Shown piece by piece: positions 23,651-50,088 of a stretch of 64,000 bases of DNA. Under the pieces are notes generated by a model. That model did not search any database, had not been told where the DNA came from, and saw only the letters and a program-made list of their open reading frames with translations. How positions within the stretch are numbered: position 1 is the stretch's first letter; each line of letters starts with the position of its first letter. The stretch comes from Symmachiella macrocystis (lineage in GTDB: Bacteria; Planctomycetota; Planctomycetia; Planctomycetales; Planctomycetaceae): NCBI RefSeq assembly GCF_007860075.1, contig NZ_SJPP01000002.1:1-64000 (forward strand), written 5' to 3'. The position numbers and the translations under genes were made by a program.

Positions 23651-24397
23651 TCACACGAACTTCTTTTCGTCGTTTGACTTTCGTCCGTCATAGTTTTTGA
23701 ACCGCGCGGGCAAAAACACCGCACCTTTGACTCCGGCCTTCCACCAATCATCTTCGACCGGTAGCCCCAATGCGCCGTTTCTTAAACCATTTGTGCTGAC
23801 GCCGATCGCAAATCCTGTCCCCATCACGGTCAAGACGCCCATCACGTCTCCGTATGTCATCAACCCCGTCGGGTCAATCCCATTCACCGGGTCGCCATGT
23901 GTATACAAATACTTATGCAACGACTGCGGGTCACGTAAATTGCCAGAGAACGGGTCGAGGCGATTAAATCGCCCGAAATTCGGATCATACCATCTTGCCC
24001 GTAGGTATTGCAGGCCCACGCGGCTGTCGAAGGCTTCGCCGCTGTAGAGCAGGGCCGTCAATGCCTGGGCTTCGTCGAAACCGATGGCGATTCCGTACGC
24101 CGTGTAGGCGTAGTGCTGCACAAACGCCGCTGTCGTGTCGAGGACGGTGCGGGGGCATTCCAGTGGGGTTGCGTGAGTGGGCTGGGGGTTGGGGTGAGCG
24201 TGGTGTGTGCGGTGCGGTGGGGGACACGAGGCTCTGGGGCGGCTTTCGTTACATTCCAGCTCACGGGAAACACAGGGGCCAGTGGCTCGTTGTCTGCATT
24301 GCGGGCGAACCTGTCCTCGCGGGTGGCCCAGGTCGATTCTCGCTGGGCCGACGAAGTCGGTGGGTGGTCTTGCCGTAACGTTGCTGGCTATTTGCAA
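23651..24397 (-). pseudogene. Orphan Rhs core + toxin tip cassette 1, truncated
   Basis: From 24148 to 23866 the frame carries the Rhs core also present in the giant gene: VLDTTAAFVQHYAYTAYG, YSGEAFDSRVGLQYLRARW, YDP...GRFNRLDPFSGN and NGIDPTG. The variable tip that follows (LMTYGDVMGVLTVMG ... DDWWKAGVKGAVF) is only ~50 residues and ends at the CCGCGCGG end of IS copy A, so the toxin domain and any immunity gene were removed. There is no export signal; the upstream ~80 codons are the conserved leader translated by chance. A silent donor cassette or relic. Confidence 0.75.
23682..23709 (-). repeat. CCGCGCGG boundary motif, copy 2
   Basis: Minus strand: CCGCGCGGTTCAAAAACTAT followed by GACGGACGA. 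It forms the right end of IS copy A and abuts the cut toxin tip. Confidence 0.6.
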
Positions 24398-24479
24398 ATC
24401 TCTCTTGCGGGTGCGCCGCCCCGAAAGCAGAATCTTTCGGGGGCCACCCTGCGGTCGTCATTGTTATTAGACCGCGCGG
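24149..24479 (-). repeat. Conserved leader of orphan cassette 1
   Basis: About 330 bp that can be aligned with the leader of cassette 2 (26292-26656). Shared blocks include a CCGAAAG/CTTTCGG hairpin, GGCAAGACCACCCACCG, CCCAGCGAGAATCGACCT and GCAGACAACGAGCC. It is not present in the giant gene, where the same core is preceded by YD repeats. Boundary motif copy 3 (CCGCGCGGTCTAATAACAAT) lies at 24453-24479 and contains the stop codon of the immunity gene. Confidence 0.7.
24419..24442 (-). terminator. Hairpin after immunity gene 2
   Basis: CCCCGAAAG (24419-24427), loop CAGAAT, CTTTCGGGG (24434-24442): a perfect 9-bp stem 25 bp after the immunity stop. No strong U-run follows, so terminator activity is uncertain. 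Confidence 0.5.
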
Positions 24480-25234
24480 CCCACATCAAGCCTTTCGGAT
24501 AAATATTTTGGCAACTCCCCGACTAAGTCCACTCTGGAGCTATTCTCGAATTCCCAATCAATTAGTCGAAATCCTTCGATGGAGCGTGCAATACGCTCGG
24601 CTAGTGATTTACAACAGGATTTGGCAACCGAACGCGCAAAGCCATCTTTTTTCGTCCAGTCCTCGACATTGGGGTCAATTGTCGATGAAAAATAAGATAA
24701 GGCGAAAGTACGAATGAATAGGTTCACCATTATGGGCAAATCACTTTCTGGCTCATAATCAATCGAGACGTCTATCAAATGTCCCCATGAATCTGACGCT
24801 TCATGCCTTTCTCGAAACGCCCAACATTCGCTAACCTTGCCATCCATGCTTGTAATAATGTGTGTTGGCCCCCACAACTTAAGCCACGTCCACGATTTAC
24901 AGTCACGCGCCATGTCGATATACGAATCCAATACTGTCACAATGTGGTCTTTGTGGTTTTCCCACACGCTTTCTGTAACACTACCTACAAAACGTGAATA
25001 AATGGGATTTGAATATGGAACTTCGAAGTCACGGAGAGTCTGGTAATTATGATCGGTCTCTTTGTCGACACCCCAAGGGTCAATGATCTCAAAACATTGG
25101 CTGTTCGGGACCGCAGCGCGAATTACAAGCGGCTGAACAAACCCGGAGCTTATTCGGTCAACTATGTGTGCGAACGTACTACCGGTCATTTCACCTGCCA
25201 ACGAAAACGTAACACTGGAATAAGGAAGTCCCAC
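24467..25234 (-). CDS. Putative immunity protein for orphan cassette 2
   Basis: 255 residues from GTG 25234, with AAGGA about seven bases upstream. The start is 10 bp after the stop of the orphan Rhs tip, which is the normal toxin-immunity spacing. No signal peptide or membrane segment; acidic and Trp/Asp-rich in places (DMARDCKSWTWLKLWGPTH, VDVSIDYEPESD-like region). The length and pattern somewhat resemble SUKH/Imm-type immunity proteins but I cannot name a family. Its stop TAA lies inside boundary motif copy 3. Role is inferred from position. Confidence 0.6.
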   Translation of the reverse strand: MGLPYSSVTFSLAGEMTGSTFAHIVDRISSGFVQPLVIRAAVPNSQCFEIIDPWGVDKETDHNYQTLRDFEVPYSNPIYSRFVGSVTESVWENHKDHIVTVLDSYIDMARDCKSWTWLKLWGPTHIITSMDGKVSECWAFRERHEASDSWGHLIDVSIDYEPESDLPIMVNLFIRTFALSYFSSTIDPNVEDWTKKDGFARSVAKSCCKSLAERIARSIEGFRLIDWEFENSSRVDLVGELPKYLSERLDVGRAV

Positions 25235-25244
25235 GCGATTGTCC

Positions 25245-26264
25245 TTAATGAAACGGAAAGATTTGGTTACCAGCGGAATCGAGTATAATTACCTGGAAAT
25301 TGGGTTTCATGGGTTTGTCAAATAGGTGGATGAGGTCATGAGTTGCTGACGCCGCCCTTTCTCGATAGTAGTCAACACTAGCAACGCTCTCTGCCTGTTT
25401 GCCAAGTTGAATGAGCACGGATTGATATTCGGCGTTCGGATTGTGCTCTAACACTTGGGCCGCTTCTTCAGTAATAACCTGGTAAAGCTTCCTTGGATTT
25501 CCTGTGCCATTATAGGAGGCCACTTCGCGCGCTAGTTCGACTGATTCGCGACGGCCGGGTTTCCACACTTTGGCCACAATGTCGGCTCCTCGCACACCGT
25601 CCCCAAATGATTCTACACTTCCTTCCACAATATCTTCGGCAAATTCAAAGGCCCGAGCCGCTCCTTTTCCCGTCACGTTATCGTGCTGACGGACTTGATT
25701 GCTGACAAGGTCCCAAAGGTGATGGAAGTCAATATATTTCGGCCGAAGTCTCTTTAAGATCTTCCCTCCAGGCAAGACATCAAAAAACAAGAAGGCGCCG
25801 GCGAGAGCCCTTGCATAGGGCCCAACCGGTTCACCATTTTCGTCAATACCAAATACAGCCGCTCGTGAATCTGCCCATACGTCGAACAGTGAGATCGCAA
25901 CATATGCCTCGAAACCGACTCCGCCAGTTACAACAGCATTATGTGCTCTCATCCCCACGTCTACAGCAAATGTAGTAAGCAACCCTACGAGGCCACCCCA
26001 AAACATCCCGGTCGGATCAATCCCATTCACCGGATCGCCGTGCGTGTACAGATACTTGTGAAGCGACTGCGGATCGCGCAAATTGCCAGAGAACGGGTCG
26101 AGGCGGTTGAAGCGGCCGGAATTCGGATCATACCATCTGGCTCGCAGGTATTGCAGGCCGACGCGGCTGTCGAAGGCTTCGCCGCTGTAGAGTCGGGTTG
26201 TCAGGGCGGCTGCTTCGACGAAACCGATCGCCCTGCCGTAGGCGGTGTCGACGTAGTGCTGCAC
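25245..26264 (-). CDS. Orphan Rhs core + complete toxin tip (cassette 2)
   Basis: 339 residues from a GTG inside the core; the homologous core actually begins at 26291. Core motifs: LYSGEAFDSRVGLQYLRARW, YDPNSGRFNRLDPFSGNLRD and NGIDPTG (ends 26008). The tip that follows starts with a hydrophobic stretch (MFWGGLVGLLTTFAVDVGM), then IDFHHLWDLVSNQVRQHD, and ends in a region GVRGADIVAKVWKPGRRESV and VDYYRERAASATHDLIHLF. The GADIV block resembles the core of restriction-endonuclease-like folds, though the usual ExK is not clear. No export signal, so it is probably silent until recombined into the giant gene. Confidence 0.75.
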   Translation of the reverse strand: MQHYVDTAYGRAIGFVEAAALTTRLYSGEAFDSRVGLQYLRARWYDPNSGRFNRLDPFSGNLRDPQSLHKYLYTHGDPVNGIDPTGMFWGGLVGLLTTFAVDVGMRAHNAVVTGGVGFEAYVAISLFDVWADSRAAVFGIDENGEPVGPYARALAGAFLFFDVLPGGKILKRLRPKYIDFHHLWDLVSNQVRQHDNVTGKGAARAFEFAEDIVEGSVESFGDGVRGADIVAKVWKPGRRESVELAREVASYNGTGNPRKLYQVITEEAAQVLEHNPNAEYQSVLIQLGKQAESVASVDYYRERAASATHDLIHLFDKPMKPNFQVIILDSAGNQIFPFH

Positions 26265-26291
26265 GAACGCCGCTGTTGTGTCGAGGACGGT

Positions 26292-26656
26292 GTGGGGGTT
26301 GTCGTGGGTGTTGGGGCGGAGCGTGCGCGGGCTGGTTGTTGGGGGGACGTCATACGTGTGATGCTGTGGGGAAAACGAACCTCTGGATCGACTTCAGTCA
26401 CATTCCATCTCACCGGACGTCACAACAGGGTCCAGAGGCTCGTTGTCTGCAGGGCGGGCGAACTTGTCATCGCGGGTGGGCTAGGTCGATTCTCGCTGGG
26501 GCGACGAAGGCGGTGGGTGGTCTTGCTGTGATGTTGCAAGCTATCCGTAAACCTCTCCCGCGGGTGGTCCCGAAAGCAGAATCTTTTGGGACCACCCGCG
26601 AATGTCCTTCCTTTGCAGGTGCAAGTAACGTCCGGCATTTTTATTGAACTGCGCGG
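26292..26656 (-). repeat. Conserved leader of orphan cassette 2
   Basis: Homologous to the leader at 24149-24479 and in the same position before the Rhs core. Boundary motif copy 4 (CCGCGCAGTTCAATAAAAAT then GCCGGACG) is at 26629-26656, 32 bp after the stop of the immunity gene at 26688. Confidence 0.7.
26559..26600 (-). terminator. Strong hairpin after immunity gene 1
   Basis: CGCGGGTGGTCCCGAAAG (26559-26576), loop CAGAAT, CTTTTGGGACCACCCGCG (26583-26600): 18-bp stem with one wobble pair. It has the same loop and inner stem as the hairpin at 24419. Position downstream of an immunity gene fits a terminator, although no U-run follows. Confidence 0.6.
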
Positions 26657-26687
26657 CAAACGCATTTCATTTGACTTTATTGAACAT

Positions 26688-27122
26688 TCACAACATATCG
26701 TCTACGAGAGAATGTTCGACTAAGTCGCGAAATTTTTTTAAAAAACCGAGCATTTGTACTACAGGTTTATTGGCCGTGTAACCTGAGTATTCAGTAAGAC
26801 CAACATGTCTATTCATCTCTTCCGGAGGAATGTACTCCCCGTAAGCTGTGATCTTCGCATGGACTTCATCAAGCAGCAATATGAGCTGCATTTTTGTTTT
26901 CGAATCATCCAGAAAGTCATCCAGCTGTAGATCAGTGCATCCAGGTCCCGGAAAAGCCTCATCTGTTGTCCAGTACTCAAAGAGATTATCGAGTTTATCG
27001 CTCTCCATCTTCCCAGCCGAGTGCTCCTTATGGGCCTCGAATAAGAACGCACATAGCCACTCAATGTCACTGTCTTTGGCCAGAATATCATTGCCCGATA
27101 ACTCTACGTATGAATGTGCCAT
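26688..27122 (-). CDS. Putative immunity protein of the giant Rhs toxin
   Basis: 144 residues from ATG 27122 with AGGAGG five bases upstream. Small, acidic, soluble and without a signal: MAHSYVELSGNDILAKDSD, LCAFLFEAHKEHSAG, PGCTDLQLDDFLDDSKTKM, ending VEHSLVDDML. I do not recognise a family. It is the first intact minus-strand gene after the toxin tip of the giant gene, the usual position of the cognate immunity gene, but a dead IS5-family copy now separates them by about 600 bp. The good ribosome site suggests it can still be translated. Confidence 0.55.
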   Translation of the reverse strand: MAHSYVELSGNDILAKDSDIEWLCAFLFEAHKEHSAGKMESDKLDNLFEYWTTDEAFPGPGCTDLQLDDFLDDSKTKMQLILLLDEVHAKITAYGEYIPPEEMNRHVGLTEYSGYTANKPVVQMLGFLKKFRDLVEHSLVDDML

Positions 27123-27212
27123 TCATGCCTCCTCTCATAGCGTATATTTCGATTGACTGAATCATTGAAAAAAGGTAGCGTTTCCTTTTTCGGAAACAAC
27201 CAAGGGGGGAAT

Positions 27213-27700
27213 AGTGCCAATTACAACGACTCGCACAAAGTATGACACGGATCTGACCGACGAACAATGGTAATTGATTCAAAAACATCTGCCGACAGCT
27301 TGCAAATGCTGGCTGCCCCGAACCGTCTTTCGGCGAAAATCATCAACGCGATTCTGTAAAACAATCGCACTGGTTGAGCGTGGCGTTTGTTGCCACATGA
27401 TTTTTCCAAATGGCGGACCTTGCACATACTGTTTTTGTGACGGCGAAACAATGCAACATGGGAACGTATTCACGATACGTTGCGTAAACAATTCATTCTG
27501 CATAACTGCCGGTGAAAAGCACTTACCGACGGCTGCGGTCATCGATAGTCGAACGGTCAAGACGAGCGATGTCCGCGGTTTTTCTGCGGGGAAAAAGATT
27601 CCCGGCGGTAAACGACATATTGTGGTCGACACAGAAGGGATGGTGCTGGCGGTCGTTGTGCAAGCTACTGATGATCAGCACGGCGGTTGGTAAAGGGTAG
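27213..27700 (+). pseudogene. Decayed IS5-family transposase
   Basis: Plus-strand pieces match IS5-group transposases: PITTTRTKYDTDLTDEQW followed by a stop, then LIQKHLPTA, LVERGVCCHMIFPN, and in the C-terminal half KHLPTAAVIDSRTVKTSDV, GKKIPGGKRHIVVDTEGMVL and VVVQATDDQHGG. Several stops, frameshifts and deletions make it inactive. It is inserted between the giant toxin gene and its putative immunity gene, antisense to both. Confidence 0.75.
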
Positions 27701-27723
27701 GATTGGATTGTGAAAACTCGCTC

Positions 27724-30700
27724 TTATGGAATTATCATTACAGGTTTTGATCCTGGCGTAAGTCCCGCAGTAATAAGTTTCACCAATGTGCTGTATTGAG
27801 TTGGTGAAAGGTTAAGTGAATCTACAACCACCCTTTTTGTAAATGTGTTAGAGTTGACGTCTCTCAGGACAGATCGAGCTAACTTTTCCACCATTATATC
27901 GGTTACTGGAATCCGTTCACCCGTTTTTCCTTTTATCCCTAACGGTCCTTTTAGTTGAACGAAACCCTTGCGTGGATCTAAGATGTCAGCCCCTTCAACA
28001 AGTGAGCGAGTGACGCGGTATCCAACTACGTTTTCGTATCTAGCGGCCGCAAGGCCTTCCATATAATTTGGTGCCCCACCGTGCTCTGCATAATCGGGTG
28101 CGAGTTCAAGTTGACGCGCGCGCAAGTGGATTTTCGAGGCAATTCCCCCTTGCGTCTCTAGCAACTCCGCCGATATTCGTGCGTTGTGCGCATTTCCTAG
28201 TTGCTGCGTTTGCGTAATCACAGCTTTGCCAACGCTCAGAGTAAAGAACATTTTTCCAGTCACGCCTGTCACAATGCGAAATGTAGCTTGATAATTAGCT
28301 CCACGCTTAAAAGAATCATCTATTGAGCTTGCGGACAAATAACCGATTAATGCACTCATTCCTGAAAATGCGTAGGCCCACACAATAGCTTTTGTAGTAC
28401 CAGCGATTCCCCCTGCCGCTATCCAGCCTGGTAGAAGTGGTGCCGTTGCTATAAATGCACCAGCGGCAAGTCCCAAAGCGGCACCAGCTATTGCGCCGTC
28501 TATCATCCCATCAATAATTGATACATCTGGATTTGGGTCTAAAGCAGCATCAATCCCGCCAAGTACTGTTCCAGCCACTGCTCCTAAAACTGTTGTTGTG
28601 GTAAGCATTCCGCCAAGGGTAAATTCACGTCCGCTGGGATCGATTCCATTGATCGGATTCCCGTGCACGTACAAATACTTATGCAGCGACTGGGGATCCC
28701 TTAAATTGCCAGAGAACGGGTCGAGGCGATTAAACCGCCCGGAATTCGGATCATACCACCTCGCCCGCAGGTATTGCAGCCCCACGCGGCTGTCGAAGGC
28801 TTCGCCGCTGTAGAGTAGGGTTGTCAATGCCTGCGCTTCGTCAAAGCCGATGGCGAGTCCGTAGGCGGTGTAGGCGTAGTGCTGCACGAATGCGGCAGAA
28901 CTATCCAACACGGCGCGGGTGCTGCCGTGGCCGTCGTAGAGTAGCGTGAGCGGGCTACCGGCCTCGGTGCCGCCCGGCGTGAAGGTCGTTTGGTCGATCA
29001 CGTCGTGGCCCAGCGTGAAGACTTTGGCATCGGTCACAGTCGCCGTGCCGGCTTCGCGGACGATTTTCTCGATGACCTGGGCATACCCGGTCGGGTTCAT
29101 GTCGTCGACGAGGTAGGACGTCTCCTCGTGCTTCGTTACGACTAGATCGGTCGCCGGGTTTTGATCGTCGTCCTCTTCCACCTTGTACGTCGAACCGACA
29201 CGGATGCCTCTGCCGTCGTAGACGTAAGTCGTCGTCTCCTTCTTGACGATGTCGCTATTACTGTCGTAGGTGTCGATGACCACTTCGGACATGCGGCCCT
29301 GCAAGTCGTAGCTGTAATCGACCACGCTCAGTGTCTGCGTGCTATAAGTCTCCTCGACGGTTTTTGAGGTTTGCAACGTACCGGTGTAGCCGTAGGTCGT
29401 GGTCGTGTCATCGGTTTCGAGATTCACGCCGTCGTCGACGTCGCCGATGACTTTCCAGCTGGTCAGCAGACGGTCGTTGTCGTCGTATTCATAGGTCAAC
29501 GTCTTATCAACGACCCCGTCGATGACTTTGGAAAGGCGGTTGCCGACGAGGTCGTAGGTAAACGTCGTCGTGTAATCCAGACTGTTGTTGTGGCTGTCGT
29601 AGTCTTCTTCGACCAAGCGGCCGAGGTTGTCGTAGGTCCAGGCGATGTCGGTGGTGTAAGCCGTGCTGCTCTCCCAGTAGGTCTCGGTGACAGCGGTGCG
29701 GCGGCCGTCGGCGCGGACGGTGTAATCGTACTCGGCCAGTTTGTCGTTGTCGGCCAGGTTCTGCGGCGTTTCATCGGGCGAGTAATGCGTCATCACGTCC
29801 AGCCGATTGAGCGCGTCGTACTCGTACGTGGTGATCATGCCGTTGGCATAATCGACGCGGGACAGGTTGCCGACCAGGTCGTAGCTGTAGGTCGTCACCT
29901 CCGCCGTGGTCAGGTCGACGCCGTTGCGGCGGACGGTGCTGACGGTTTTTAAGCGGCCCAGCGCATCGTAGCTGTAGGTCCAATCGTGCGTCGGGTCGGC
30001 CGGGTTACCAATCGATTTGCGGACCTGCCGGCCGTAGTTGTCGTATTCATAATTCAGCACACCCTCAGGCGTGTCGATTTGTGACAGGCGGTCGAATTCA
30101 TCGTAGGTGTAATCCGTGTCGCCGCGTTCATCGGTGATTTGCTCGCGCTGGTCGAGGCTGTTGTAGGTATACTCGACTGTCTCATCAGCGGGATCGGTCT
30201 CCGGATCGCTGCCCGGCGCGAAGTACTGCAATTCGTCGAGGAATCCCAGGTCGCTGTAGACCGACTCGGTGATGTTCCCCTCAAAATCGGTATGCTGAAT
30301 CAGCCGCAGCGTCTCTTCGTCGTACTCGAAGGACTCGGTTTGGCCCATCGGCAATTCGCGGGTGAGCTGGTGACCGAAATCGTCGTAGGTGAACAGCGTC
30401 TCGCGGTAATCGTCGCCGTTCCCGCTGTTACCGTCGTGGTCGTAGGTCTTCGTGCCGTTAATCCAAACCACGTTGTCGCGGATGGCGGTGCGGTTGCCCT
30501 GTTCATCGTAGAAGTATTCATAACCGGGCCGCACAGTCACCTGCGTGTCGGGATGTGTAACGGCCGGCAGGATCACGGCGGTCAACCGGCCCTGGTCGTC
30601 ATATTCGTAGTTTTTGGTGTTGCCCAATGCATCGGTTTCGCTCAAGACCCGGCCGAAATCGTCGTAGGTCGAGGTGATGTAGCTGTCGTCGTCGAACGTG

Positions 30701-42700: not shown

Positions 42701-45700
42701 CCTGGTCCGGAAAGAATCGAATACGTCACCGCATCGCCGTCCGGGTCGACTGCCGCTGCGCCGTATTCGTACGACTCGCCGGCGACGACTTCCGTTACCG
42801 GGTCACTGACAAATTCCGGCGACCGATTGAAATCGGCCAGGATCTGTAGTTCGTAGTTGAATTGCACCTGCTGCGGATTGTGGAAACGCAGTGCCAAACC
42901 CGACAGCGCGGCGGCCGGATCTAGCATTCCGTCTTCCATGAGGTGCGTGACATCGAAGTACGCGTACCCATCGGGCGTCAATCCGTCATAACCGGTGGCC
43001 TGCACGCGGGGATTATCGACGTGATGCACGGCCACCAGCAGCGGCCCGCGGATCGGCGAAATTCCGTCATTTGTCAGCGTCAGACCGGTAAACAGCGTGT
43101 CGCTCGATTCGTCAAACGACGTCGCCTGATACTCCCACGACACCGCCGCCGTTACGTCGATCATATGGTCGAAATCGATCGTGTTTGGGGCGTGACCGTC
43201 GCCGGATGGGGACGTCAGACTTGGATTGGTAACCGGTGATGTCGTGAGAATTGTGGGATGCACGTCGACCGAAACCGTCGATGTGGAATCGGCGTCATTA
43301 TTCACCAACCGCACTGCCAGCGTGGCTGCCAGACCTTCCGGCAAATGCGAAATGTCGAGCGTCACCGTCCCGGCTTCAGCGTCATAAACAACCCCGCCTC
43401 CGAGTAAAGGATCTTCACCTTCGGTCATATTGAAGAATGCGTCCCGCCCGCCGCCGATCGTGCCCGCCAGCGGATTGCCGTCGCTATCCAAGAGCGCTAT
43501 TTCGAAGGCGTCGTTGATTGCAGCACCGTCGGCCGTATCGAATTGCAGGTCGAAGAACCGCAGCTCCAGTGCTTCAGCATCAGCGGGGATCGTCAACGCA
43601 TCTTCATAGAGCGTCTGGAAATTATTGTTCTCAGTGAGTTGAACGTAATGCGTCCTTAACGTGACCGGAATCGTCCCTAAGACCGTATCGGTGCCGTTCT
43701 GGTCCCGCACAAATTGCAGATCGAACACATACTGCGTCCCGTCGCCTGTGAAGCGAATGTCGTATGAAATGTCGTCTTCTGTGAGTGTCTCGCTGAGGAC
43801 CTCAAACGTCACATTGGGATCGGTCGAGACCAAATCCATTTGATCAGCTGTGATCTTGTTGGTGAGGATGTCCACGAACGCCGCGGTGAACGATTCCGTG
43901 GCCAACACTTGGGCTGCCGTTGCACCTGTCAACCCTCCGGCACGCAGTTGATGCAGATCCCAGGTAGTCCCCTCTAAATCGAATGCTAGATCAATGTAAT
44001 CCGCTTCGGTGGTGATATTATTATTGTAGTCAAACACGGGAGTGGAGTAGCGAGTGAACGCCACTCCCCCGCTGGTCTCCGACGTATAACCGCCCGAACC
44101 ATCCGCGTAATAAGCGCTGTTGCCGGTTCCCGCACCATCGATCCCCAGCGCGTTCTCAGTCTGGTTTGTGGTATCGACCTGCATGTTGACAATACTGTGC
44201 AACGTGTAGCCGGCAGTATCCAGATCGTTGAAGATGTCGTTGTAAGTTAGGTTTGGAGAAGTGTTATCCCGATCTTCATCGGTGATCAAAATAAAGTGTG
44301 TCGCGGCATTGTCACGGAATCGTAAATGCTGCAGTGCCTCGTCGATCGCGTCATAGCCGTCTTCCACGCCACCATTGTCAACGAGACGGCCACTGGCAGC
44401 CGACATTTGCGCCGCTGTCCCCCAGGCATCGATCCGCAAATTGACTTCTCGTCCGGCGGCACCTTCGAAATGAAACACATCCCGCTCACCGCTGGCGGTG
44501 AAATCCCCGGCCGTATCTGCATCAATCGCCGTCAGGTTTGCCTCATCCAACTCGATCAGTCGAAATTCGAAACTGCCGGTCGAACTGTTGTCGGCTCCTA
44601 CGACGACGGTGTACGTTCCGGAATCAGCGACTGTGAAGGTCGACACCGAATTCGGTTGCGCTGCACTGTCGTAAGCAACCCGCGCGACCTCCACTCCCGC
44701 CGCATTACGGATGCTCAAATAGTGATCGGTCGTCGACGCATCGGCAAAATCGATGAAGTAGTTCTCGCCTGCGGTGGCGTTGAACGTGAACGCATGCAGG
44801 TCCCCTGCAGTCGAGATGCTGCCGCTATTTGTTGCTGAGAGGCTCGACGTCGACGACAATTCCAACAACTCAATCTGAAACGCATACGGCCTCGTCACGG
44901 GTGTATCATCCAGAGTTCCTTCGATCAGCAGGCTATAAGTCCCGCCGGCCGTCAATTCGAACAACCCTGTGCTCGCACCCAATTCCCCACTGGTCAGCAC
45001 CGTGCCGGAGGAATTCACCAACCGCCAAGTCGCATCGGCATCACCTGCCCAATTCACCGACTGAAACCCAAATTGATCGCCCGCACCGGCCGTGAATTCG
45101 TAAACTGCCGTTCGATGCGACGCGGCGAGCACTCCCGTCACATCGCTCCCGGCTGTGATCGTCGTTGCCGACGACAGGTCCAAGACCGCGAACGCATAAT
45201 CCCCCGTGATCCCACTGTCGGCATCGATCGTCAGCGTATAAGTCCCCGCCGACAGGCTCAGCACTGAGTTTGCATTACTGACTCCCGACGCGTCCGAAGC
45301 ATCCAACGCGCGGCTGTTGACGATCGTTCCGCCGCCATCGGCCAACGACCAGTACATGTCGCCACGACCGGTCAGCGAATCGAACGATACCAGTGCCGCC
45401 GAGCCTAGCGTGAACGTATATTCGTCTTCTTCCAACGACGCGCTGATTTCGCCACTGACGACTTGATTGAGTGCTAGCGGCGCCGGATCGGACGTGTCGC
45501 TCCCTTCATCCACCACCTCAAACGAAAACGCAGGATTGCTCGTGGCATCATCGATCGCTCCTTCCAGCAACAGCGTATAATCCCCCGCTGCATGAACGTG
45601 CAGGGTCGGCACGTCGTCACCAATCGCAGCACCAAAGAGTTCATTACCGAACGGATCGATCAGCCGCCACTGCGCCGCGGCTGAACCGGCCCAGGAGATT

Positions 45701-48700
45701 GCATCAAACGAATATTTATCCCCCGCTGCCGCTGTGAACTTATAGGTGGCCGTGCTGCTGGCCGGATTGAGGTTGCCACTCTCCGTCGAATCAACCGTTA
45801 ACGACGTCGCTGACGCGAGGTCCAGAATTTGGAAATCGTAAGACCCGGTCGCATCGCCGGGAGGATCGATCGACAGCGTATACGTCCCCGCTCCCAATCG
45901 CAAAACGAGATCGGACGCATCCAGAGGCACGTCCGCAATCACCGTCCCTGCGGTCGCTTCAGTCAGCGTCCAGGCCAAATCGCCATCATCAGTCTGCGAA
46001 TCGAACGCCAATAGTTCGTCGCCGGTCAGCGTGAACGTGTATTCATCCGCCTCACCTGCTTTGGAAATCGAGCTGCTGTAACCCGTGCCGAACGACAATG
46101 CCGTCGAGGAGGTCGCGCCAAGAATTTCGACCGTGAAACTGAACGCCCGTGTCGAAGCTGTATCGGCCACGTCACCGTCGACAACCAGGTAATACGTGCC
46201 GGTCGAGGACGTCGTCAGCGGTTCGTGATCTTCGGAAAGCGATTGCGAAAACAATTCCGTGCCCGAGGGATCGATCAATCTCCACTGCGCTCCGGCGGGC
46301 AGACTGGAGCTCTGGCTGTTGAAGTAATACTGGTCCCCTGCCGATGCCGACAGTTCATACACCAGCGAATCGGTCGCCGGATCGAGTGTCCCGTTGATTT
46401 GTGTCCCGGCCGTGATCGACGAGCCGGACAGATTCAGCAACCGAAACGCATAGGTCCCGGTCGCTTCCGATGGGCCATCAACGGTCAGCGTGTAACTGCC
46501 GCTCTCGCCGACAATCTTCAGGCCGCCTGCATCAAAGTCGCGATCCGTCACGACCGCACCGGACGGCCCTGTCAAAGACCAGCGCAAATCGGTGTCGGTC
46601 GTAAGCGACTCGAAATACAGCGTGTCACTACCGCTGAGGCTGAACGTGTGCTCGTGCGTTTCACTGTCATTATGAATCTCGCCTGTGGTCAATTCATCCA
46701 GAACCAGTGCTGCTGAACCTCCCACGGACGATGCGTCTTCCAGCACGAAACTGTAGTCATAACTGCTCGTACTGCCGGCATGATCGACGACAATCGTGTA
46801 ATCCCCCGACGCGGGCAGCGTAAAGCTCCCTTCTATCAACCCAGTTGTCGTCTCGACCGCCAACTGTTGGCTTTCGAGTTGCGTTCCGTCCGGCCCGTAG
46901 ATCGTCACAATCACCGGCTCAGGAGTCATCGAAAAGAGGGTTCCCTCTCCCAAATAACCAACGAGAGAATAACGATTGCCGGTCACTCCGTTCGCATTGA
47001 GCGACGAATCCAGTGACGTGACCATACCAGCGATCCAAGCATGTTCATCCTCCATTGAACCGGACTCGTCGACAATGAACACGACATCTGCTGTGGGTGC
47101 GTACTCGTCGTCAAACGAAAGCGTCACCGTGTGCTCCGACTGCTCCTGCGGCAGCAGGTTGACTTCGATTGATGTCGGATCGACATCGCCGGTTGCCGGG
47201 TTCGGAGCGGGCAGTTCGCCACCACCGATGATTTGTACACCGTCATCCAATTCGACGTCGTCGTTAATAATCGTCGACGTGACCAGGATTTCGCTGATCG
47301 TCGCACTACCAGAACCGCTGACCTCTGCGTTATGGATTGCGACACTGTATTCTTTGTCCGGTTCGGGATCTGCATCGTTGTCGATCACGACGGTGAAATC
47401 CAAACTTGTGTCGTTCCCCGCCCCACTGCTGAATGTGAGAGTTGACCCGGAAAGAGAAACACCCGTTGCGCCGCTGACCGCCGTCGCCAGCGCCGCGGCC
47501 ACCGTCGTGTCGTAATCGGCTGCATCGGTATGCACGAGAAGGTGCGCCACATCGATACTGGCCGTTTCGCCGCTCGCCAAGGCACCGGTATAGCCCACCG
47601 TGTAGGTGATCGAGTTGCCGTCGCCGTCCGTGGGATCCTCGGTGACCTTCACCGCCGAGGCACTGATCGCGAACTCCACGTCGTTGTTGACAATTGTTGT
47701 GGCAGCCGTTGCCGTCTCGATCGAAGCGGTCCCTGAACCGCTCGTCGCGGCGTTGCTCAATGTGACGCTATACCCTTCTTCCTCTTCCGCAGCCGCATCG
47801 TCGTTGACCTCGATCGTAAAATCGAGACTCTTGGTCTCCGAACCGGCATTGCTGCTGGTGTAAGCGACCTCAATTTGTGCCGAGTAGAGTTCAAAATCAC
47901 CGTCCCGCAGTTGAACAATCAGCCCGAAGTCCGACGCGTTGAGTTCGGCGGCCGTCCAGGTCGTCCCCCACAAGGCGGTGGCATCTCCCAGCACCACTGT
48001 ACCGCTCGACCAGTTGCCCGTCGGTGTAGGTGCCGTACCGGTCGCAGTGGTTCCGTTCTTGGTGATTTTGAGGGCGGAACTGGCGTTATTGGGATTGTCG
48101 CCACCGGTGATCAAGGTCACTTTAATGCCGTCGATCGTCGCCCCGGTGGGGATGTTCAAATCAAAGTCCGTCAACAGCAACTCGTCACTATAGTCGCCCC
48201 CGCCGGTATCGACCGTGGCGGCCGTCCCCGATGTGTTCCCCTCGGCATTGCCGATAGCGCTCCACGCATCGTCGGCGGTGGTCCCCACTGCGGCGTTTCC
48301 AGCATAGCCGGAGCCGGTGGTCGAACTGACCTGCGGCCCCAGAAACGTAAGCGTCGTACCGTCAAAGCTGACATCGGCAACGTTGGCGGCCGCGGTGGTC
48401 AGCGCCTCCACGACGTTCGTCGTATAGTCGGCCGACAAAGTCTCGCTCAGCACATGGCTGACGTCCACGCTGGCCGATTCATTCTCTTCGAGCACGCCGT
48501 CGTAACTGATGGTGTACGTCACTTGATTGCTGTCGCCGTCTGTCGTCTCCTCGGTGACAGATGCGCCCCCAGTAAGCGAAAACGCCACATCTCCGACGAT
48601 CACTTCGTGGTTGACGATCGTGGCATTCGCAGAAGCCGTTGCGATCGTCGCCGTCCCCGAACCGCTTACCACGGCGTTGCTCAAAGACACGCCAAACGCT

Positions 48701-50088
48701 TCGTCATCCTCCGCCTCGATGTCGTCCGCGACGACGACGGTGAAGTCTAGACTAATGTCGTTCCCGCTGCCCCCACTAAACGTCAGCGTCGTACCGTCAA
48801 ACGTTACCCCGGTTGCCGACAACTTGGCACTGTTGATCGCCGCAATCACGGCGGTTTCATAGTCGGCTAAGTCGGATTCGTTCAACACGTGGCTGACATC
48901 CACGCTGGCGATAGCCCCGTCCTCCAGCGTGCCGGTATAACCAATCGTATAAGTGATCGCGTTGCCGTCGCTATCGGCGACATCCTCAGTGACCGTCGAC
49001 GCCGTCGCACTGATCGCAAACTCAACGTCGCTATTGACGATCGTCGTTTCGGCCGACGCTGTAGTGATTGCGGCGCTTCCCGCACCGCTGGCAGCGGCGT
49101 TACTGAGCGTGACACTGAAGTCTTCATCACTTTCGACAACAGAATCATCGTTCACAACGACCGTGAAGTTCAAACTAGAGGTCGGGGAACCGCCGGTGGT
49201 GTATGAGATTTCAATGTTGGCAGTGTAGACGTTGTACTCGTCGCCGTTGCTATCCCCTTCAAGCTGAATCAGCAGACCAAAGCCCGTGGCGTTGAGTTCC
49301 GCGGCTGTCCAGGTTGTGCCCCATAGATTCGTATCGCTGCCGACGGTGAGCGTCCCACCCGACCAACTGCCCGAAGTGATCGTACCAGTCCCGGCAGACG
49401 AGGTACCGTTCTTGGTGATCTTGACCGACGTACTCTCGTTGTCCGGACCATCCGAACCGGTCGTCTTGAGTACAGCGGTGATGCCGTCGATCGTCGCGCC
49501 GGTCGGGATACTGAATCCGAAGTCTGTCAAACGCAGGGTGTGTGAATAATCGTTGCGGCGGGGTTCCACGGTGGTGAATGTTGTCGGAGTATCGTCCTCG
49601 GCATTACCTGGAGTGACCCAAGCTTCGTCCCCGCTAGAATCCTGCGTCACCGATCCGGCAAAGGCGTCGACATCAGCAGAAACGGCCCCCGTCCCCTGGA
49701 ACGTGAGCGTCGTGCCGTCAAAACTGACGTCGGTGTGATTGCCCGCTGCGGTCGTTATGGCGCTGACCACATTTGTCGAGTAATCCGCCGCATCGGTTTC
49801 ATCGAGCAGGTGGCTAACATCCACGCTAGCCGTCTCACCCACATCGATCGTGCCGGTATAGCTGATCGAATAGTCCACTTCGTTGCTATCGCCGTCGGTC
49901 GTATCCTCCGTGACCGACGTGTCCCCAGAGATCGCAAAATTGACCGTCAGCAACGTGCGGTCTTCTAACACCTCGATGGGATTGGACATGTTGCGAAATC
50001 GCCGCATTCGCCGCGATTTCTCGCGCCGTCGATAGCTCTGCTTCATCAACCGCGTCCGTACAGCTTCCAACCACGGCGCAAACAACAT
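27724..50088 (-). CDS. Giant exported Rhs-type polymorphic toxin, 7454 residues
   Basis: The start at ATG 50088 is set by GGAGG eight bases upstream. Approximate layout by residue: 1-55 basic leader with the planctomycete motif EVLEDRTLL; 55-950 four Calx-beta-like repeats (VTEDxTDGDSN, DVSHLL), two with another sandwich inserted; about 1000 VWA first half with MIDAS DESGS; 1050-1880 PPC-like repeats; about 1880-2000 VWA second half (EDGYDAIDEAL, ILITDEDRD); two He_PIG modules near 2400-2600; a second split VWA (DESVS, about 2680; second half about 3560-3650); seventeen more He_PIG modules to about 5410; Rhs/YD repeats about 5600-7060; core about 7058-7152 ending NGIDPSG; then a variable tip of about 300 residues with hydrophobic helices and GADILDPRKGFVQLKGP, which could be a PD-(D/E)xK-like nuclease core. 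No frame break over 22 kb, so it is maintained. Predicted to be a cell-surface contact-dependent toxin. Confidence 0.85.
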   Translation of the reverse strand: MLFAPWLEAVRTRLMKQSYRRREKSRRMRRFRNMSNPIEVLEDRTLLTVNFAISGDTSVTEDTTDGDSNEVDYSISYTGTIDVGETASVDVSHLLDETDAADYSTNVVSAITTAAGNHTDVSFDGTTLTFQGTGAVSADVDAFAGSVTQDSSGDEAWVTPGNAEDDTPTTFTTVEPRRNDYSHTLRLTDFGFSIPTGATIDGITAVLKTTGSDGPDNESTSVKITKNGTSSAGTGTITSGSWSGGTLTVGSDTNLWGTTWTAAELNATGFGLLIQLEGDSNGDEYNVYTANIEISYTTGGSPTSSLNFTVVVNDDSVVESDEDFSVTLSNAAASGAGSAAITTASAETTIVNSDVEFAISATASTVTEDVADSDGNAITYTIGYTGTLEDGAIASVDVSHVLNESDLADYETAVIAAINSAKLSATGVTFDGTTLTFSGGSGNDISLDFTVVVADDIEAEDDEAFGVSLSNAVVSGSGTATIATASANATIVNHEVIVGDVAFSLTGGASVTEETTDGDSNQVTYTISYDGVLEENESASVDVSHVLSETLSADYTTNVVEALTTAAANVADVSFDGTTLTFLGPQVSSTTGSGYAGNAAVGTTADDAWSAIGNAEGNTSGTAATVDTGGGDYSDELLLTDFDLNIPTGATIDGIKVTLITGGDNPNNASSALKITKNGTTATGTAPTPTGNWSSGTVVLGDATALWGTTWTAAELNASDFGLIVQLRDGDFELYSAQIEVAYTSSNAGSETKSLDFTIEVNDDAAAEEEEGYSVTLSNAATSGSGTASIETATAATTIVNNDVEFAISASAVKVTEDPTDGDGNSITYTVGYTGALASGETASIDVAHLLVHTDAADYDTTVAAALATAVSGATGVSLSGSTLTFSSGAGNDTSLDFTVVIDNDADPEPDKEYSVAIHNAEVSGSGSATISEILVTSTIINDDVELDDGVQIIGGGELPAPNPATGDVDPTSIEVNLLPQEQSEHTVTLSFDDEYAPTADVVFIVDESGSMEDEHAWIAGMVTSLDSSLNANGVTGNRYSLVGYLGEGTLFSMTPEPVIVTIYGPDGTQLESQQLAVETTTGLIEGSFTLPASGDYTIVVDHAGSTSSYDYSFVLEDASSVGGSAALVLDELTTGEIHNDSETHEHTFSLSGSDTLYFESLTTDTDLRWSLTGPSGAVVTDRDFDAGGLKIVGESGSYTLTVDGPSEATGTYAFRLLNLSGSSITAGTQINGTLDPATDSLVYELSASAGDQYYFNSQSSSLPAGAQWRLIDPSGTELFSQSLSEDHEPLTTSSTGTYYLVVDGDVADTASTRAFSFTVEILGATSSTALSFGTGYSSSISKAGEADEYTFTLTGDELLAFDSQTDDGDLAWTLTEATAGTVIADVPLDASDLVLRLGAGTYTLSIDPPGDATGSYDFQILDLASATSLTVDSTESGNLNPASSTATYKFTAAAGDKYSFDAISWAGSAAAQWRLIDPFGNELFGAAIGDDVPTLHVHAAGDYTLLLEGAIDDATSNPAFSFEVVDEGSDTSDPAPLALNQVVSGEISASLEEDEYTFTLGSAALVSFDSLTGRGDMYWSLADGGGTIVNSRALDASDASGVSNANSVLSLSAGTYTLTIDADSGITGDYAFAVLDLSSATTITAGSDVTGVLAASHRTAVYEFTAGAGDQFGFQSVNWAGDADATWRLVNSSGTVLTSGELGASTGLFELTAGGTYSLLIEGTLDDTPVTRPYAFQIELLELSSTSSLSATNSGSISTAGDLHAFTFNATAGENYFIDFADASTTDHYLSIRNAAGVEVARVAYDSAAQPNSVSTFTVADSGTYTVVVGADNSSTGSFEFRLIELDEANLTAIDADTAGDFTASGERDVFHFEGAAGREVNLRIDAWGTAAQMSAASGRLVDNGGVEDGYDAIDEALQHLRFRDNAATHFILITDEDRDNTSPNLTYNDIFNDLDTAGYTLHSIVNMQVDTTNQTENALGIDGAGTGNSAYYADGSGGYTSETSGGVAFTRYSTPVFDYNNNITTEADYIDLAFDLEGTTWDLHQLRAGGLTGATAAQVLATESFTAAFVDILTNKITADQMDLVSTDPNVTFEVLSETLTEDDISYDIRFTGDGTQYVFDLQFVRDQNGTDTVLGTIPVTLRTHYVQLTENNNFQTLYEDALTIPADAEALELRFFDLQFDTADGAAINDAFEIALLDSDGNPLAGTIGGGRDAFFNMTEGEDPLLGGGVVYDAEAGTVTLDISHLPEGLAATLAVRLVNNDADSTSTVSVDVHPTILTTSPVTNPSLTSPSGDGHAPNTIDFDHMIDVTAAVSWEYQATSFDESSDTLFTGLTLTNDGISPIRGPLLVAVHHVDNPRVQATGYDGLTPDGYAYFDVTHLMEDGMLDPAAALSGLALRFHNPQQVQFNYELQILADFNRSPEFVSDPVTEVVAGESYEYGAAAVDPDGDAVTYSILSGPGTMAIDAETGMITWSPTSGDVGGHVVIVQATDPLGSYDLQTYTLSVSENIPNRPPLFTTIPIVDAYLHTTYFYDSDASDPDGDDLTYSLVDGPLGMAIDTDTGAISWDVTDVSLVGTLVSVTLKVTETGESGAGHEATQEYLIAVHEAIGNHDPIIISDPQLTFELPGFSGNTATGDVTPTELELHLSAGEVSEQIVSLDYEYDGNFSADIVLIVDESVSMTGGQAWLDEIAEALNAELEAAGYFENRFAIVGFTADSAVFSTVDDPFRVSVYGPDDVLVKSVWVPERELFSSALAGWELPSSGEYTVVVENTDGSTATEYSFVLESVEEVVSTQSLTLGTSYSGTIETYAAQDEYTFSIAADDTLVLFDALEHNDQLQWSLTGPGGEVVTDRLLDQEDLVLSLDSGSYTLAIAAVGFRSEDYQFRLVDLSAASSVTLGSSTSGTLDPVGESVGYEVTISTAARYDFTSESWNGSAAARWRLVDDSGAELFDALLSESQSLVNLAVGDYLLIIDGDVDDTATQPQYQFNVDTGTYSLSGTAISLDQTVSDNLASGQYNFTLSADALVYFDVTEEISGGTAQTMSWTLEGADGTFISSRWLEESNAGGYSSSDPDPLVFDLSAGGYNLTIDNSSQNDYEFRVVDIHSTSLSDVSSLTLDTVVNGTLSSSRETHSYTFSATAGDVLAFDALTSAAQSSARWRLIGPDGSVLSTNGLLTDLPVHVITQTGDYALLIEGGTDDSSTSRTYSFEVQSLNLATVGSLTDGTLAADETHRYGFTLDEDALLYFDALTDEADFAWQLLDSSGTTVVSQRLFTASDGDDVSDANAVLDLSAGTYVLDVLSLNSATGDYDLRLVNLADVAVSDFLGTTSDALSAGNSTDVYHFQAIPGDTLTIDVSSYSGPSGSQWRVVDSDGTVVDSDLISASQDTVSITAHGEYYLLIEGDISDIASSQSYTLDATLSQGGTPTALTLGSTTSGTISSADTFDVYSISGTAGQELFLDWLSGATTDMTLWLRDADGNLLLTESRSEESDYTKFPLVTLATTGTYTLLVGDAAGGTGAYSFRVLDKATQSQLVLSDETSAVFTTTNEDRLYRFNGTAGQKMVLRLDAWADADDVDEMTARLKTEGAVEDGYEAIHTALNGLNFRDHVSRQLVLITDEDRDSPDSNLTYNTILDELDEHDASLHSLLDVTLNQVPGSGTYALGVDGDTAADNMYWIGTGGDYTVTSGTAPNFSTSWAIETEYIDLTFDADGTVWDGLTLEWGVPDEVNSFIAALADVIRGDVSEDLDVTLTASDPNVQFEILTKTYNGTSFDFDVRITGDGNPHAFDLQFVRENNPGVVVGTIPTEIWVDYFYDVDAIDPDNDELTYTLVGETHGATFDNETGLLRWAPTVTGEYEFTALVEDGRGGSDLQTWTVTVGDTTSGNTAPVLASAGPFTIQSGRPFEFMAVASDVDGDALQYQILDIPGSANAKPAGMTIDPLTGVVSWTPDVLQAGEYDIVIRAADGRGGIDSTTVSITVVVPTIVETLDNAHPVIVSTPVTSAMLGIQYTYDVQATDADLDPLLYELALAPEGMAIDPVTGLISWVPSFSDLDDTIAGQHHVAVRVTDGRGGIALQKFIVDLQSGLPIITSSPNLSATVGTEWTYQLTASDPDLPNDVLEYELTYGPDGATIGASDGLLSWTPTATGIKLFVVTVYDLAGHGYQQMFLLPVIDTGSNTAPTILSTPRTQTIADQTFLTRITASDPEGEVITYSLIDGPSTMTINAATGMVQWLPGLEDVNAVSAPHQYTVRATDARGLYDEQTFDLHVVAPLIGDDGTSLNHSPEITSTPDKVWIVDRLYRYQATATDVDGDQLLWSLDSDVANMEIDPATGELLWLPDASHIGNTEVTIRVIDPFGGLATQSFVISVSDSNHPPEITSDPPQSGRSGEAYTYNVEATDPDEDTLVFALDNPPTGMSINPNTGVISWTPSSEGSYSVTVTATDPSGWYAYQTYDLTIYAPASNLPPQINSNPEQTGMVGTAYSYQVIATDPDEDELDYSLGGTPPIGMSIDPDTGLLTWTPGTGQTGVHSVQVIVSDGTDSDDQTFEISVRDNAAPVLTAIPDGTLTAGQLYEFDVSATDTDGDTLTYSLLGAPSNMTIDAGTGRIRWQTTLDDINLHPNITVAVTDPFGLYDTHMFDLDVVPPTADDGGDGNSGDGGGPAINSQPFITSTPGETVIVGNLYSYQATATDPDNDPLEWLLDTSVRNMHLDRDTGQLFWTPDEDQIGDTEVMVRARDPFGAWSRQTFVISVVGTNQMPLFTTDPITSGRVGDNYSYAANAIDPDGDPLTYALLEAPTGMTIDPGTGVISWTPGATGTSDVTVTATDPSGLAAEQTYQLVITAAATNGRPEITSTPDWIALVGSEYTYQVTATDPDDDTLEYSLGGTPPSGMSIDTDTGLLTWTPSGGQAGIHSVEVIASDGSLGIGQNFDLFVRDNAAPTIAPIPDLTRAAGEKYQFTAYGSDTDGDALTYELSGEPAGMMINPVSGYIEWLTTIDDIGTYADITVTVTDPYGLSASETFDLEIIAPPTSGGGSNHNGDSNQNGGPLITSTAGGLAIVDEQYTYQATATDPDGDTLLWSLETDVANMEINPTTGELLWTPDASQIGTVSVWILVSDPHGAWSMQEIHVAVVDNNLPPQFTSTPPASGHSDEDYTYNVTATDPEDETLTFSLSDGPTGMTIDPDTGVLSWTPTGVGMFDVIVTVADTSGYAVHQDYDLTIFAPAANLPPQITSTAVLTGMVGTAYSYQVTATDPEDDTLTYSLGGTPPTGMSINSSSGLLSWTPGSGQTGLNTFEVIVSDGNDTDTQYLGISIRDNTAPTITTIPDATVTAGNGYQYDVLASDADGDALTYSISGEPTGMTIDADTGRIEWQTAIGDIGAHTNITVTVTDEFGLYSTDTFDVTVAADDTPPVVDVTYSHDPARLGTPLSIYIQAVDDVGVDEITLDINGVDVAVDANGNAVYDVVSLDPLVVTVTATDTVDNETVVVDNLTVIDPGDVTAPMVTITSITGGEELTEPTDILGTVDDLDDNLVYWTLIATAIDSGREFTLATGGNEITTPALLGNFDTTAVANGLYRLTLTAVDAGGNTATDNKLVTVEGNLKLGAFSISFLDMQVPAPGFPITITRSYSTLDAGEQGDFGYGWSLDIANTSVNVEHADSGLSNHGPYTPFKNGDRVVITLPDGSTEGFTFYTEPAFSYGIIAYDYKPKFVADAGVDSELFVNEADVHLQQAGDEWVDHSKQGLAYNPALEEFGNAYVLRLRTGVELTINATTGELASIHDRYGNALYFTGDGIESSNGRGVDFTRDYAGRITKITDHVGNFLRYDYDQETGNLIAVTDRTDATTQFTYLDGPNDPEHYLDEIIDPLGRSAATTTYDEQGRVDTVTDADGQTISYTYDSGNKTQTITDQLDNTSTVTFDSRGNITREEDPLGGITKRTFDDDDNLLTEIMVIGLEDTVSSETNDLLTTYTYDTNGFVASVITPDNLETTYNNHETGTPLTVTDPLGNTTQTVVDEYGRPLYLIDALENRTQLLYYGVGTNAADNGQVRYIVSPWKTDDYHGPSHNTAVSFEYDEEGNLISTTNWDQWSTPANAGDGNYQTNRFTYDDYGNQIGTSRLWQDPNDAENTVTLTTSSSYDDNNRLISHTDAYGHTSTTTYDAAGQVIATTRIIGQDDNISAETDDQTTTMLYDPRGQNIQTTYSDGTITRTVYDAKGRAVYTTDRHLPADDTNGTYYIYDALDRVIETRRHKDLVITITDNNGDFTSAYTSKGDELSSSSSTYDAVSGWLLSSTSSSGSTTTYEYDDFGRTKKITQTIGSSSRETNYAYDEFGRQEWVEDSYGRETATFYDEYGRVKRTVYHDSTFSETTYDSFGRVATTTDRFGNTRTNTYDGTVGRLVKTETSAGVVSEYEYDYYGQQTAMEVTADNVTARTEYEYDQFGRQVLVRDALGRETSYDYDEYGNVIKTTFDDDSYITSTYDDFGRVLSETDALGNTKNYEYDDQGRLTAVILPAVTHPDTQVTVRPGYEYFYDEQGNRTAIRDNVVWINGTKTYDHDGNSGNGDDYRETLFTYDDFGHQLTRELPMGQTESFEYDEETLRLIQHTDFEGNITESVYSDLGFLDELQYFAPGSDPETDPADETVEYTYNSLDQREQITDERGDTDYTYDEFDRLSQIDTPEGVLNYEYDNYGRQVRKSIGNPADPTHDWTYSYDALGRLKTVSTVRRNGVDLTTAEVTTYSYDLVGNLSRVDYANGMITTYEYDALNRLDVMTHYSPDETPQNLADNDKLAEYDYTVRADGRRTAVTETYWESSTAYTTDIAWTYDNLGRLVEEDYDSHNNSLDYTTTFTYDLVGNRLSKVIDGVVDKTLTYEYDDNDRLLTSWKVIGDVDDGVNLETDDTTTTYGYTGTLQTSKTVEETYSTQTLSVVDYSYDLQGRMSEVVIDTYDSNSDIVKKETTTYVYDGRGIRVGSTYKVEEDDDQNPATDLVVTKHEETSYLVDDMNPTGYAQVIEKIVREAGTATVTDAKVFTLGHDVIDQTTFTPGGTEAGSPLTLLYDGHGSTRAVLDSSAAFVQHYAYTAYGLAIGFDEAQALTTLLYSGEAFDSRVGLQYLRARWYDPNSGRFNRLDPFSGNLRDPQSLHKYLYVHGNPINGIDPSGREFTLGGMLTTTTVLGAVAGTVLGGIDAALDPNPDVSIIDGMIDGAIAGAALGLAAGAFIATAPLLPGWIAAGGIAGTTKAIVWAYAFSGMSALIGYLSASSIDDSFKRGANYQATFRIVTGVTGKMFFTLSVGKAVITQTQQLGNAHNARISAELLETQGGIASKIHLRARQLELAPDYAEHGGAPNYMEGLAAARYENVVGYRVTRSLVEGADILDPRKGFVQLKGPLGIKGKTGERIPVTDIMVEKLARSVLRDVNSNTFTKRVVVDSLNLSPTQYSTLVKLITAGLTPGSKPVMIIP
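28632..28916 (-). repeat. Rhs core block shared with both orphan cassettes
   Basis: About 285 bp from AVLD to IDPSG in the giant gene. Equivalent blocks lie at 26008-26291 and 23866-24148. The encoded segment RVGLQYLRARWYDPNSGRFN is identical or nearly so in all three. The variable tip starts right after each block. It is the expected crossover site for tip exchange. Confidence 0.8.
33890..37250 (-). repeat. Three tandem ~1.14-kb units of four He_PIG modules
   Basis: Within the giant gene, units start near 37250, 36105 and 34965. Each unit has module types in the same order: ATDxDGDxLLWSLD-like, ATDPDEDTLxFAL-like, YSLGGTPPxGMSI-like and DTDGDxLTYxLxGxP-like, the last ending TLDDI/TIDDIG/AIGDIG and VTDPFGLY-type text. 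This shows expansion by duplication of a four-module block. Confidence 0.7.

Follow-up and report, generated by a model that had tools for sequence, protein, structure and literature searches.

When a bacterium changes the toxin at the end of a very large gene, how much of the gene is exchanged, and what becomes of the old end? These questions are raised by a locus in the first 64,000 nucleotides (nt) of contig NZ_SJPP01000002.1 of the planctomycete Symmachiella macrocystis (RefSeq assembly GCF_007860075.1). This whole stretch is what we call the window, and positions are window coordinates unless another genome or locus is named. On the reverse strand of the window, a giant gene ends in an Rhs core and a variable tip, and further copies of the core lie downstream. 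We refer to the carrier part of the giant gene as the shell, and to a downstream core copy with its tip, apart from the giant gene, as an orphan. We compared the source genome (G000, 96.6% complete) to two other genomes of the same genus, G001 (which is one contig) and G002.

In G001, the shell was kept, the Rhs end and the tip were replaced, and the old end was left behind as an orphan. Of all our results, this displacement between two species is the strongest. We consider it likely that this locus encodes a polymorphic Rhs toxin mounted on a giant adhesin-like carrier, that its end is exchanged as a unit, and that the old end may persist downstream.

Replacement of the Rhs end between two species

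The shells of G000 and G001 are 92.96% identical at the amino-acid level over residues 22-1711 and 90.2% identical over residues 1732-6568, and the nucleotide identity to window 30972-50397 is 90-92%. The ratio of nonsynonymous to synonymous substitutions (dN/dS, by the NG86 method, in bins of 500 amino acids) is 0.06-0.24 in every bin except the one that spans the break described next, where it is 0.385. At window 31382, which is 2.75 kb before the tip, the identity drops from 91.8% above the break (2,019 nt) to 68.5% below it (410 nt). The chi-square statistic for this break is 173.8, and 0 of 500 shuffles reached that value (the largest was 21.8).

Beyond the break, the main gene of G001 has a different Rhs end (72.8% nucleotide identity over its last 1.28 kb) and a tip of 222 amino acids, and an open reading frame (ORF) of 140 amino acids overlaps its stop. 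About 42 nt after this ORF, the G000-type core resumes, with 90.7% nucleotide identity to window 28620-30108 (ORF at L044 9235-11616). The incoming tip and its ORF sit between the main end and the displaced G000-type core, which implies that the incoming end replaced the old end, and that the old end stayed behind downstream. The displaced core ends in a lipase tip of 287 amino acids, with an ankyrin-repeat ORF 26 nt further on, and after this cassette comes a leader-type orphan with a tip of 104 amino acids. For the 1.27 kb at window 30108-31382, we saw no close copy in the G001 loci that we examined.

The initial annotation of the locus had suggested comparing it between strains, with a swapped tip and conservation upstream of the DP(S/T)G site as the expected result. 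Against G001, the tip is indeed swapped and the shell is conserved, but the exchanged piece extends beyond the part behind DP(S/T)G: it comprises 2.75 kb of the Rhs region plus the tip. For G002, part of the gene is available. It is 68.9% identical over residues 5629-7278, and the tip diverges after the first ~60-95 residues. More broadly, the C-terminus after DPxG varies between close relatives while the upstream part is conserved, with the start of the tip partly alignable in some relatives.

Two other features of G001 were seen. The giant gene, which is one frame in G000, is split there into two overlapping frames (L045 14627-14678); this could be a true break or an assembly error. Also, the third tip of G001 (104 amino acids, L044 7623-7934) has a Gly-zipper match that is just below the threshold (28.0 vs. 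28.9 bits), and this tip is possibly membrane-active.

The giant gene and its carrier

The reading frame is open on the reverse strand from 50181 to 27724, or 7,485 codons from the GTG at 50181. We favor the ATG at 50088 as the start because the frame in G001 opens only 13 residues before the aligned methionine. With this start, the gene has the 7,454 codons that were originally reported. The Rhs core and variable tip at its end hold up as well: Rhs_assc_core scores 62.3 bits (the NCBIfam cut-off is 32.5), the core ends in DPSG, and a tip of 301 amino acids follows. The nine matches to RHS_repeat in the whole genome are all inside this gene. It has the features that define Rhs polymorphic toxins, namely RHS/YD repeats and an Rhs-associated core near the C-terminus, and its Rhs region matches solved structures of Rhs cages such as Tse5.

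The shell had been described as a cadherin/VWA/PPC adhesin. This holds only in part: He_PIG, Big_9, and Calx-beta are above the Pfam cut-offs, but the two matches to VWA and the one of cadherin type (PF25374) fall short of them, and Pfam reported no PPC domain in the giant protein at E <= 0.001. Reading by eye, we saw LEDRTLL in the basic segment at the N-terminus and, again only by eye, a motif LE(D/E/P)R. The LEPR-XLL domain (NF012209 in NCBIfam) was above its cut-off in none of six N-termini; G020 alone had a sub-threshold match (11.8 vs. 17 bits).

Core copies and orphan cassettes in the window

A 300-nt core is present in three copies, starting at 26008 (the reference), at 28631 in the main gene (81% nucleotide identity), and at 23865 (83%). 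These copies are not due to chance, because 300 nt are over 80% identical, in frame, and all end at the same DPxG. At the amino-acid level, the orphan cores are 83-90% identical to the main core. The initial annotation had reported two downstream copies of ~284 bp, on the same strand and with different tips; besides their somewhat greater length, this is what we find (the tips have 253 and 70 amino acids), and the 255-amino-acid ORF that starts with GTG at 25234 does lie 10 bp behind the stop of tip 2. The features are listed in Table 1.

Table 1. Coordinates of the giant gene, the orphan cassettes, and the candidate immunity genes in the window.
Feature	Position	Strand	Description
Giant Rhs gene	27724..50088	-	7,454 amino acids from ATG 50088; stop 27724
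Conserved part of the gene	31382..50088	-	N-terminal basic segment, Calx-beta, VWA-like (sub-threshold), He_PIG/Big_9 repeats, start of Rhs region; 90-93% amino-acid identity in G001
3' part of Rhs region	28630..31382	-	replaced in G001 (about 67-73% nucleotide identity); part at 28620-30108 kept there as downstream orphan (90.7% nucleotide identity)
Core repeat of main gene	28631..28930	-	ends in DPSG
Tip 1	27724..28629	-	301 amino acids; predicted toxin; GC content 0.47 vs. 0.58 for shell; no family match
DDE transposase remnant	27274..27693	+	between tip 1 and the 144-amino-acid ORF
ORF 1, candidate immunity gene 1	26688..27122	-	144 amino acids; no family match
Orphan-cassette leader, first copy	26310..26594	-	opens with hairpin around 26569-26590
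Orphan core copy 1	26007..26306	-	ends in DPTG; without a clear start of its own
Tip 2	25245..26006	-	253 amino acids; predicted toxin; no family match
ORF 2, candidate immunity gene 2	24467..25234	-	255 amino acids; GTG 25234; 10 bp after stop of tip 2; no family match
Orphan-cassette leader, second copy	24160..24441	-	hairpin 24420-24441
Orphan core copy 2	23864..24151	-	ends in DPTG
Tip 3	23651..23863	-	70 amino acids, short; insertion sequence copy just downstream, 22147-23523

Upstream of the core, both orphans share a block of 142 nt, which did not show up among the repeats of the main gene. It belongs to the orphan leader, which is also present in part at two other sites in G000 and before the orphan cores of G001. 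The GC content of the tips and of ORFs 1 and 2 is 0.44-0.52, as compared to 0.58-0.62 for the shell and the cores; the low GC content and the position of the tips and ORFs suggest that they are foreign modules. The three tips are predicted to be toxic, and the two ORFs are candidates for the immunity genes. ORF 2 is where an immunity gene is expected, directly after a tip, but our searches found no relatives of it. The main tip instead precedes the transposase remnant, and ORF 1 lies behind this remnant, ~600 bp from the main tip and between the main gene and the first orphan. Besides these copies, G000 has a fourth core, which is solitary and partial, on contig C1 (L060 7293-8444), far from the main locus; its tip of 313 amino acids has no family match.

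What are the orphans for? The initial annotation viewed them as silent donors for tip replacement. In such a model, the cell would use its downstream cassettes to reload the main gene, with recombination within the ~300-nt core. Reloading was proposed as one model for enterobacterial rhs genes by Poole 2011 (PMC3150448). Also, stretches of 33 and 35 nt are exactly the same in the core copies and the main gene, and the orphan cores fall in the genus group that holds the main core. However, the core copies in G000 are just 81-83% identical, so they are not freshly homogenized, and the single exchange that we could map took 2.75 kb of the Rhs region, beyond the 300-nt core, and left the old end downstream. 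We consider reloading rather unlikely as the explanation. Because one orphan of the sister species is a displaced end of the main gene, as described for enterobacterial rhs by Jackson 2009 (PMC2935791), the term "silent donors" is at best half right and needs to be corrected. The orphans are at least partly displaced former ends, and not only donors.

Relatives of the core

We searched 59 genomes, including G000, with the core and tip 1 together (402 residues), and found matches in 37 of them (36 of the 58 others). Among the matches listed from the other 58 genomes, none extends past residue 226 of the 402, which leaves the final 176 residues of tip 1 without a match. In 7 of the 59 genomes (G000, G001, G020, G026, G039, G044, and G057), the core match is inside a stop-to-stop frame of at least 4,000 codons; the match in G039 is weak (E = 2.9e-7). 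Named genomes gave 12 loci that match the core. Eight of these are from metagenome-assembled genomes of planctomycetes (two of them going by the taxon name), and the others are from other phyla.

For a tree, we chose 23 cores, of which 20 are from the 27 rows of the genome set and 3 are from the 12 named-genome loci; partial, split, and distant cores were left out. DPxG is kept in 22 of the 23. The cores of the genus (three genomes) fall into one group, in which the orphan cores sit with the main core, and five of the six cores from G020 make up another. Several forks of the tree are weakly supported.

Toxin families on related cores

Our searches found no relatives of the window's own tips and ORFs. 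When we compared the main end, both cassettes, and both ORFs to Pfam and NCBIfam, only the Rhs core matched. We found no relatives of tip 1 (its last 180 amino acids) or tip 2 among solved structures, none of these tips or of ORF 1 on plasmids, and none of ORF 1 on viral contigs. Across 392 planctomycete genomes, tip 1 (180 amino acids), tip 2, and ORF 2 had only their own genome among the matches listed, and G001 and G002 were not in the rows listed (for tip 1, these two genomes were covered by the 59-genome search). PADLOC reported one match in the frame of tip 2, to DpdH, which is weak (E = 0.0076) and which we took to be due to chance.

Other tips on related cores are more informative. We scanned 18 tips besides the window's three with Pfam, leaving out the main tip of G020. 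Three of the 18 were above the cut-off: Lipase_3 (the giant gene of G026), NTP_transf_2 (the G039 gene), and a Tle1-like phospholipase in G020 (84.5 bits vs. a cut-off of 27), which is behind a more distant core (43% amino-acid identity). Below the cut-offs, there were matches to three further lipases, colicin-DNase/WHH, eCIS_core, and Gly-zipper, and the remaining tips had no meaningful match. The toxin-family tips on related cores, along with the replacement of the end on a conserved shell, bear out the original view that this is a polymorphic Rhs locus.

A profile built from four lipase tips matches the solved structures 7ubz and 9cys of the antibacterial lipase Tle6 (E = 5.3e-29), in which a Tle lipase domain from Enterobacter cloacae is bound to its ankyrin immunity protein (PMC11470151). 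An ankyrin ORF directly follows the lipase tip in G001, G022, and G026; in a second locus of G001, it is ~1.1 kb downstream, past another ORF. (The ankyrin profile is from the same four founding loci.) By eye, the four founding ankyrin partners have a lipobox-like cysteine near the start. Among 29 core loci, which include three of the four founding loci, a lipase was found in 3 and an ankyrin ORF in the same 3, all of them profile-founding, and none of the 26 loci without a lipase had an ankyrin ORF.

As an independent test, we searched 372 planctomycete genomes with the lipase profile. It found 6 genomes, of which 5 were new. An ankyrin ORF is next to the lipase in 3 of the 5 (downstream in G347 and G075, upstream in G238). 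There was none in the stretch seen of G397, where the lipase frame has 7,756 codons and which belongs to another family of the phylum, and none in G290, where the contig ends. The Rhs core is in the same frame as the lipase in only 2 of the 5 new genomes (G347 and G397), which slightly lowers our confidence in the preferred explanation. For the lipase tips that are fused to this core family, an ankyrin ORF is nearby in 5 of 6 cases. Overall, judging by their sequences, the lipase tips of the relatives are Tle6-like, and most have the expected ankyrin partner nearby. The profile had 0 matches in G000, so the Tle6-Tli pairing applies to the lipase tips of several relatives and not to the window itself.

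Insertion sequences, the leader hairpin, and possible decay

Two insertion sequence (IS) copies flank the locus, at 22147-23523 and 51445-52819; they are on the same strand and 88% identical, and the first carries an IS481/IS3-like transposase. Genome-wide, at least 34 pieces match the flanking copies, including the query (40 of 73 candidates were scored). We do not think that a composite transposon accounts for the locus, because the flanking copies are on the same strand, are 88% identical, and match so many pieces elsewhere.

The hairpin that opens both orphan leaders (24420-24441 and 26569-26590) has an ATTCTG loop and is rare. It also occurs at G000:C2:130449 and G000:C1:1974337. With up to 2 mismatches, there are 4 copies in G000, 7 in G001, and 0 in G002, which rules out a general terminator.

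Could the locus be in decay, as an adhesin gene that ends in an Rhs tail, has degenerate repeats, is riddled with ISs, and plays no toxin role today? The transposase remnant right after tip 1, the ISs on both flanks with their many matching pieces, the short tip 3, and the split shell frame in G001 would all fit. But decay would hardly leave a frame of over 7,400 codons uninterrupted by a stop and the low dN/dS between two species, and related cores in other genomes carry open tips from toxin families. We think that decay is distinctly improbable.

Delivery

How might such a toxin leave the cell? One explanation is that it is an ordinary Rhs-type effector of a type VI secretion system (T6SS). 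The Rhs region resembles the cages of T6SS Rhs effectors, and 3 of 9 related genomes do have T6SS sheath genes. (In G039, they are at G039:C1:4259981-4265878, ~36 kb from its Rhs gene, unlike in G000.) However, G000 gave no match to the sheath gene (PF05943), and neither did 6 of the 9 other genomes, including the one-contig G001, while the E. coli control was positive. Also, no PAAR or VgrG domain was reported in the giant protein at E <= 0.001, and thousands of residues of Ig/cadherin-like repeats lie ahead of the Rhs region. In other words, neither a T6SS in the genome nor a PAAR- or VgrG-linked N-terminus, which together define T6SS Rhs effectors, was found for G000, and this explanation is very unlikely. 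As to contact-dependent inhibition (CDI) by two-partner secretion of the CdiA type, a TpsB-type transporter (ShlB, PF03865) was not found, but no control genome gave a match either; FHA-type repeats were not reported in the giant protein.

Returning to a polymorphic toxin gene with an exchangeable end, we propose that it consists of two parts. The first ~6,250 residues, with the N-terminal export-type segment, Calx-beta, the VWA-like and Ig/cadherin-like repeats, and the beginning of the Rhs region, are under purifying selection. Everything after them (the remaining Rhs region, the DPxG junction, the tip, and the immunity gene) would move together when recombination takes place inside the Rhs region, and a former end could persist further downstream as an orphan. 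In the protein, the Rhs region probably forms a closed cage that encloses the tip. The tip would be cut near DPxG and released into a neighboring cell, while the immunity genes would protect siblings. The giant protein is presumably at the cell surface and would act by contact.

More tentatively, this could be a T6SS-independent kind of antagonism in planctomycetes. A giant surface-tethered adhesin (roughly 5,000-9,000 amino acids) might both bind the target and carry an Rhs cage whose toxin can be swapped; among these toxins would be Tle6-type lipases, with ankyrin immunity proteins in the periplasm. The adhesin might use another export route. This is a possibility, and we would not put it higher than that.

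Relation to described systems

The working principle is known from other bacteria. As in the enterobacterial rhs loci (PMC2935791, PMC3150448), a variable tip follows DPxG, downstream orphan core fragments of varying length carry unrelated tips, the tips are low in GC, old ends are displaced, and small ORFs are candidates for immunity genes. (For Serratia, an identity of 91.6% between orphan and main core is quoted in Jackson 2009.) Unlike those loci, this one has a 7,454-amino-acid carrier with Ig/cadherin-like repeats, an orphan leader with a hairpin, and no T6SS sheath gene that we could find. In planctomycetes, Zhang 2012 (PMC3482391) described polymorphic toxins with Rhs repeats, toxin/immunity cassettes, ankyrin immunity proteins, and hydrolase and nuclease tips, all of which are similar to what we see. 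The giant cadherin-like carrier is different: "cadherin" occurs 0 times in the part of that text that was covered. As for Tle6/Tli of E. cloacae (PMC11470151, PMC10294624), the similarity lies in the lipase tips of related cores, which match the solved Tle and usually have an ankyrin partner nearby. But the lipases of the relatives are fused to Rhs proteins (one in a frame of 7,964 codons), some of these genomes lack a detected T6SS sheath gene, and none of the window's own tips is Tle6-like.

Is the architecture new? Among the matches listed in literature searches on planctomycete Rhs toxins and giant Rhs genes (titles and the starts of abstracts, with few subscription papers), none described it, and "rhs" is absent from the covered text of a paper on huge proteins (PMC11573180). 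Still, the initial annotation went too far in calling the architecture undescribed. Table 2 of PMC7717043 lists Pla52n_68570 from Stieleria varia, with 6,872 amino acids, cadherin-like adhesion, and a "toxin system." This protein is only tabulated there, and it resembles the giant protein in size and annotation (we liken them by description, not by sequence). What sets the locus apart as an unusual form of the known principle is the giant adhesin-like carrier, in a genome where we detected no T6SS sheath gene.

These results raise a question that can be tested: by which route do Rhs toxins leave the cell and reach their targets when the genome has no T6SS sheath gene that we could find? They also document, in two species that are not Enterobacteria, the replacement of an Rhs end that left the old one behind, with the border of the exchange mapped. 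And they tie the giant proteins of planctomycetes, which are often called adhesins, to interbacterial toxins, via tips that are homologous to a structurally solved toxin.
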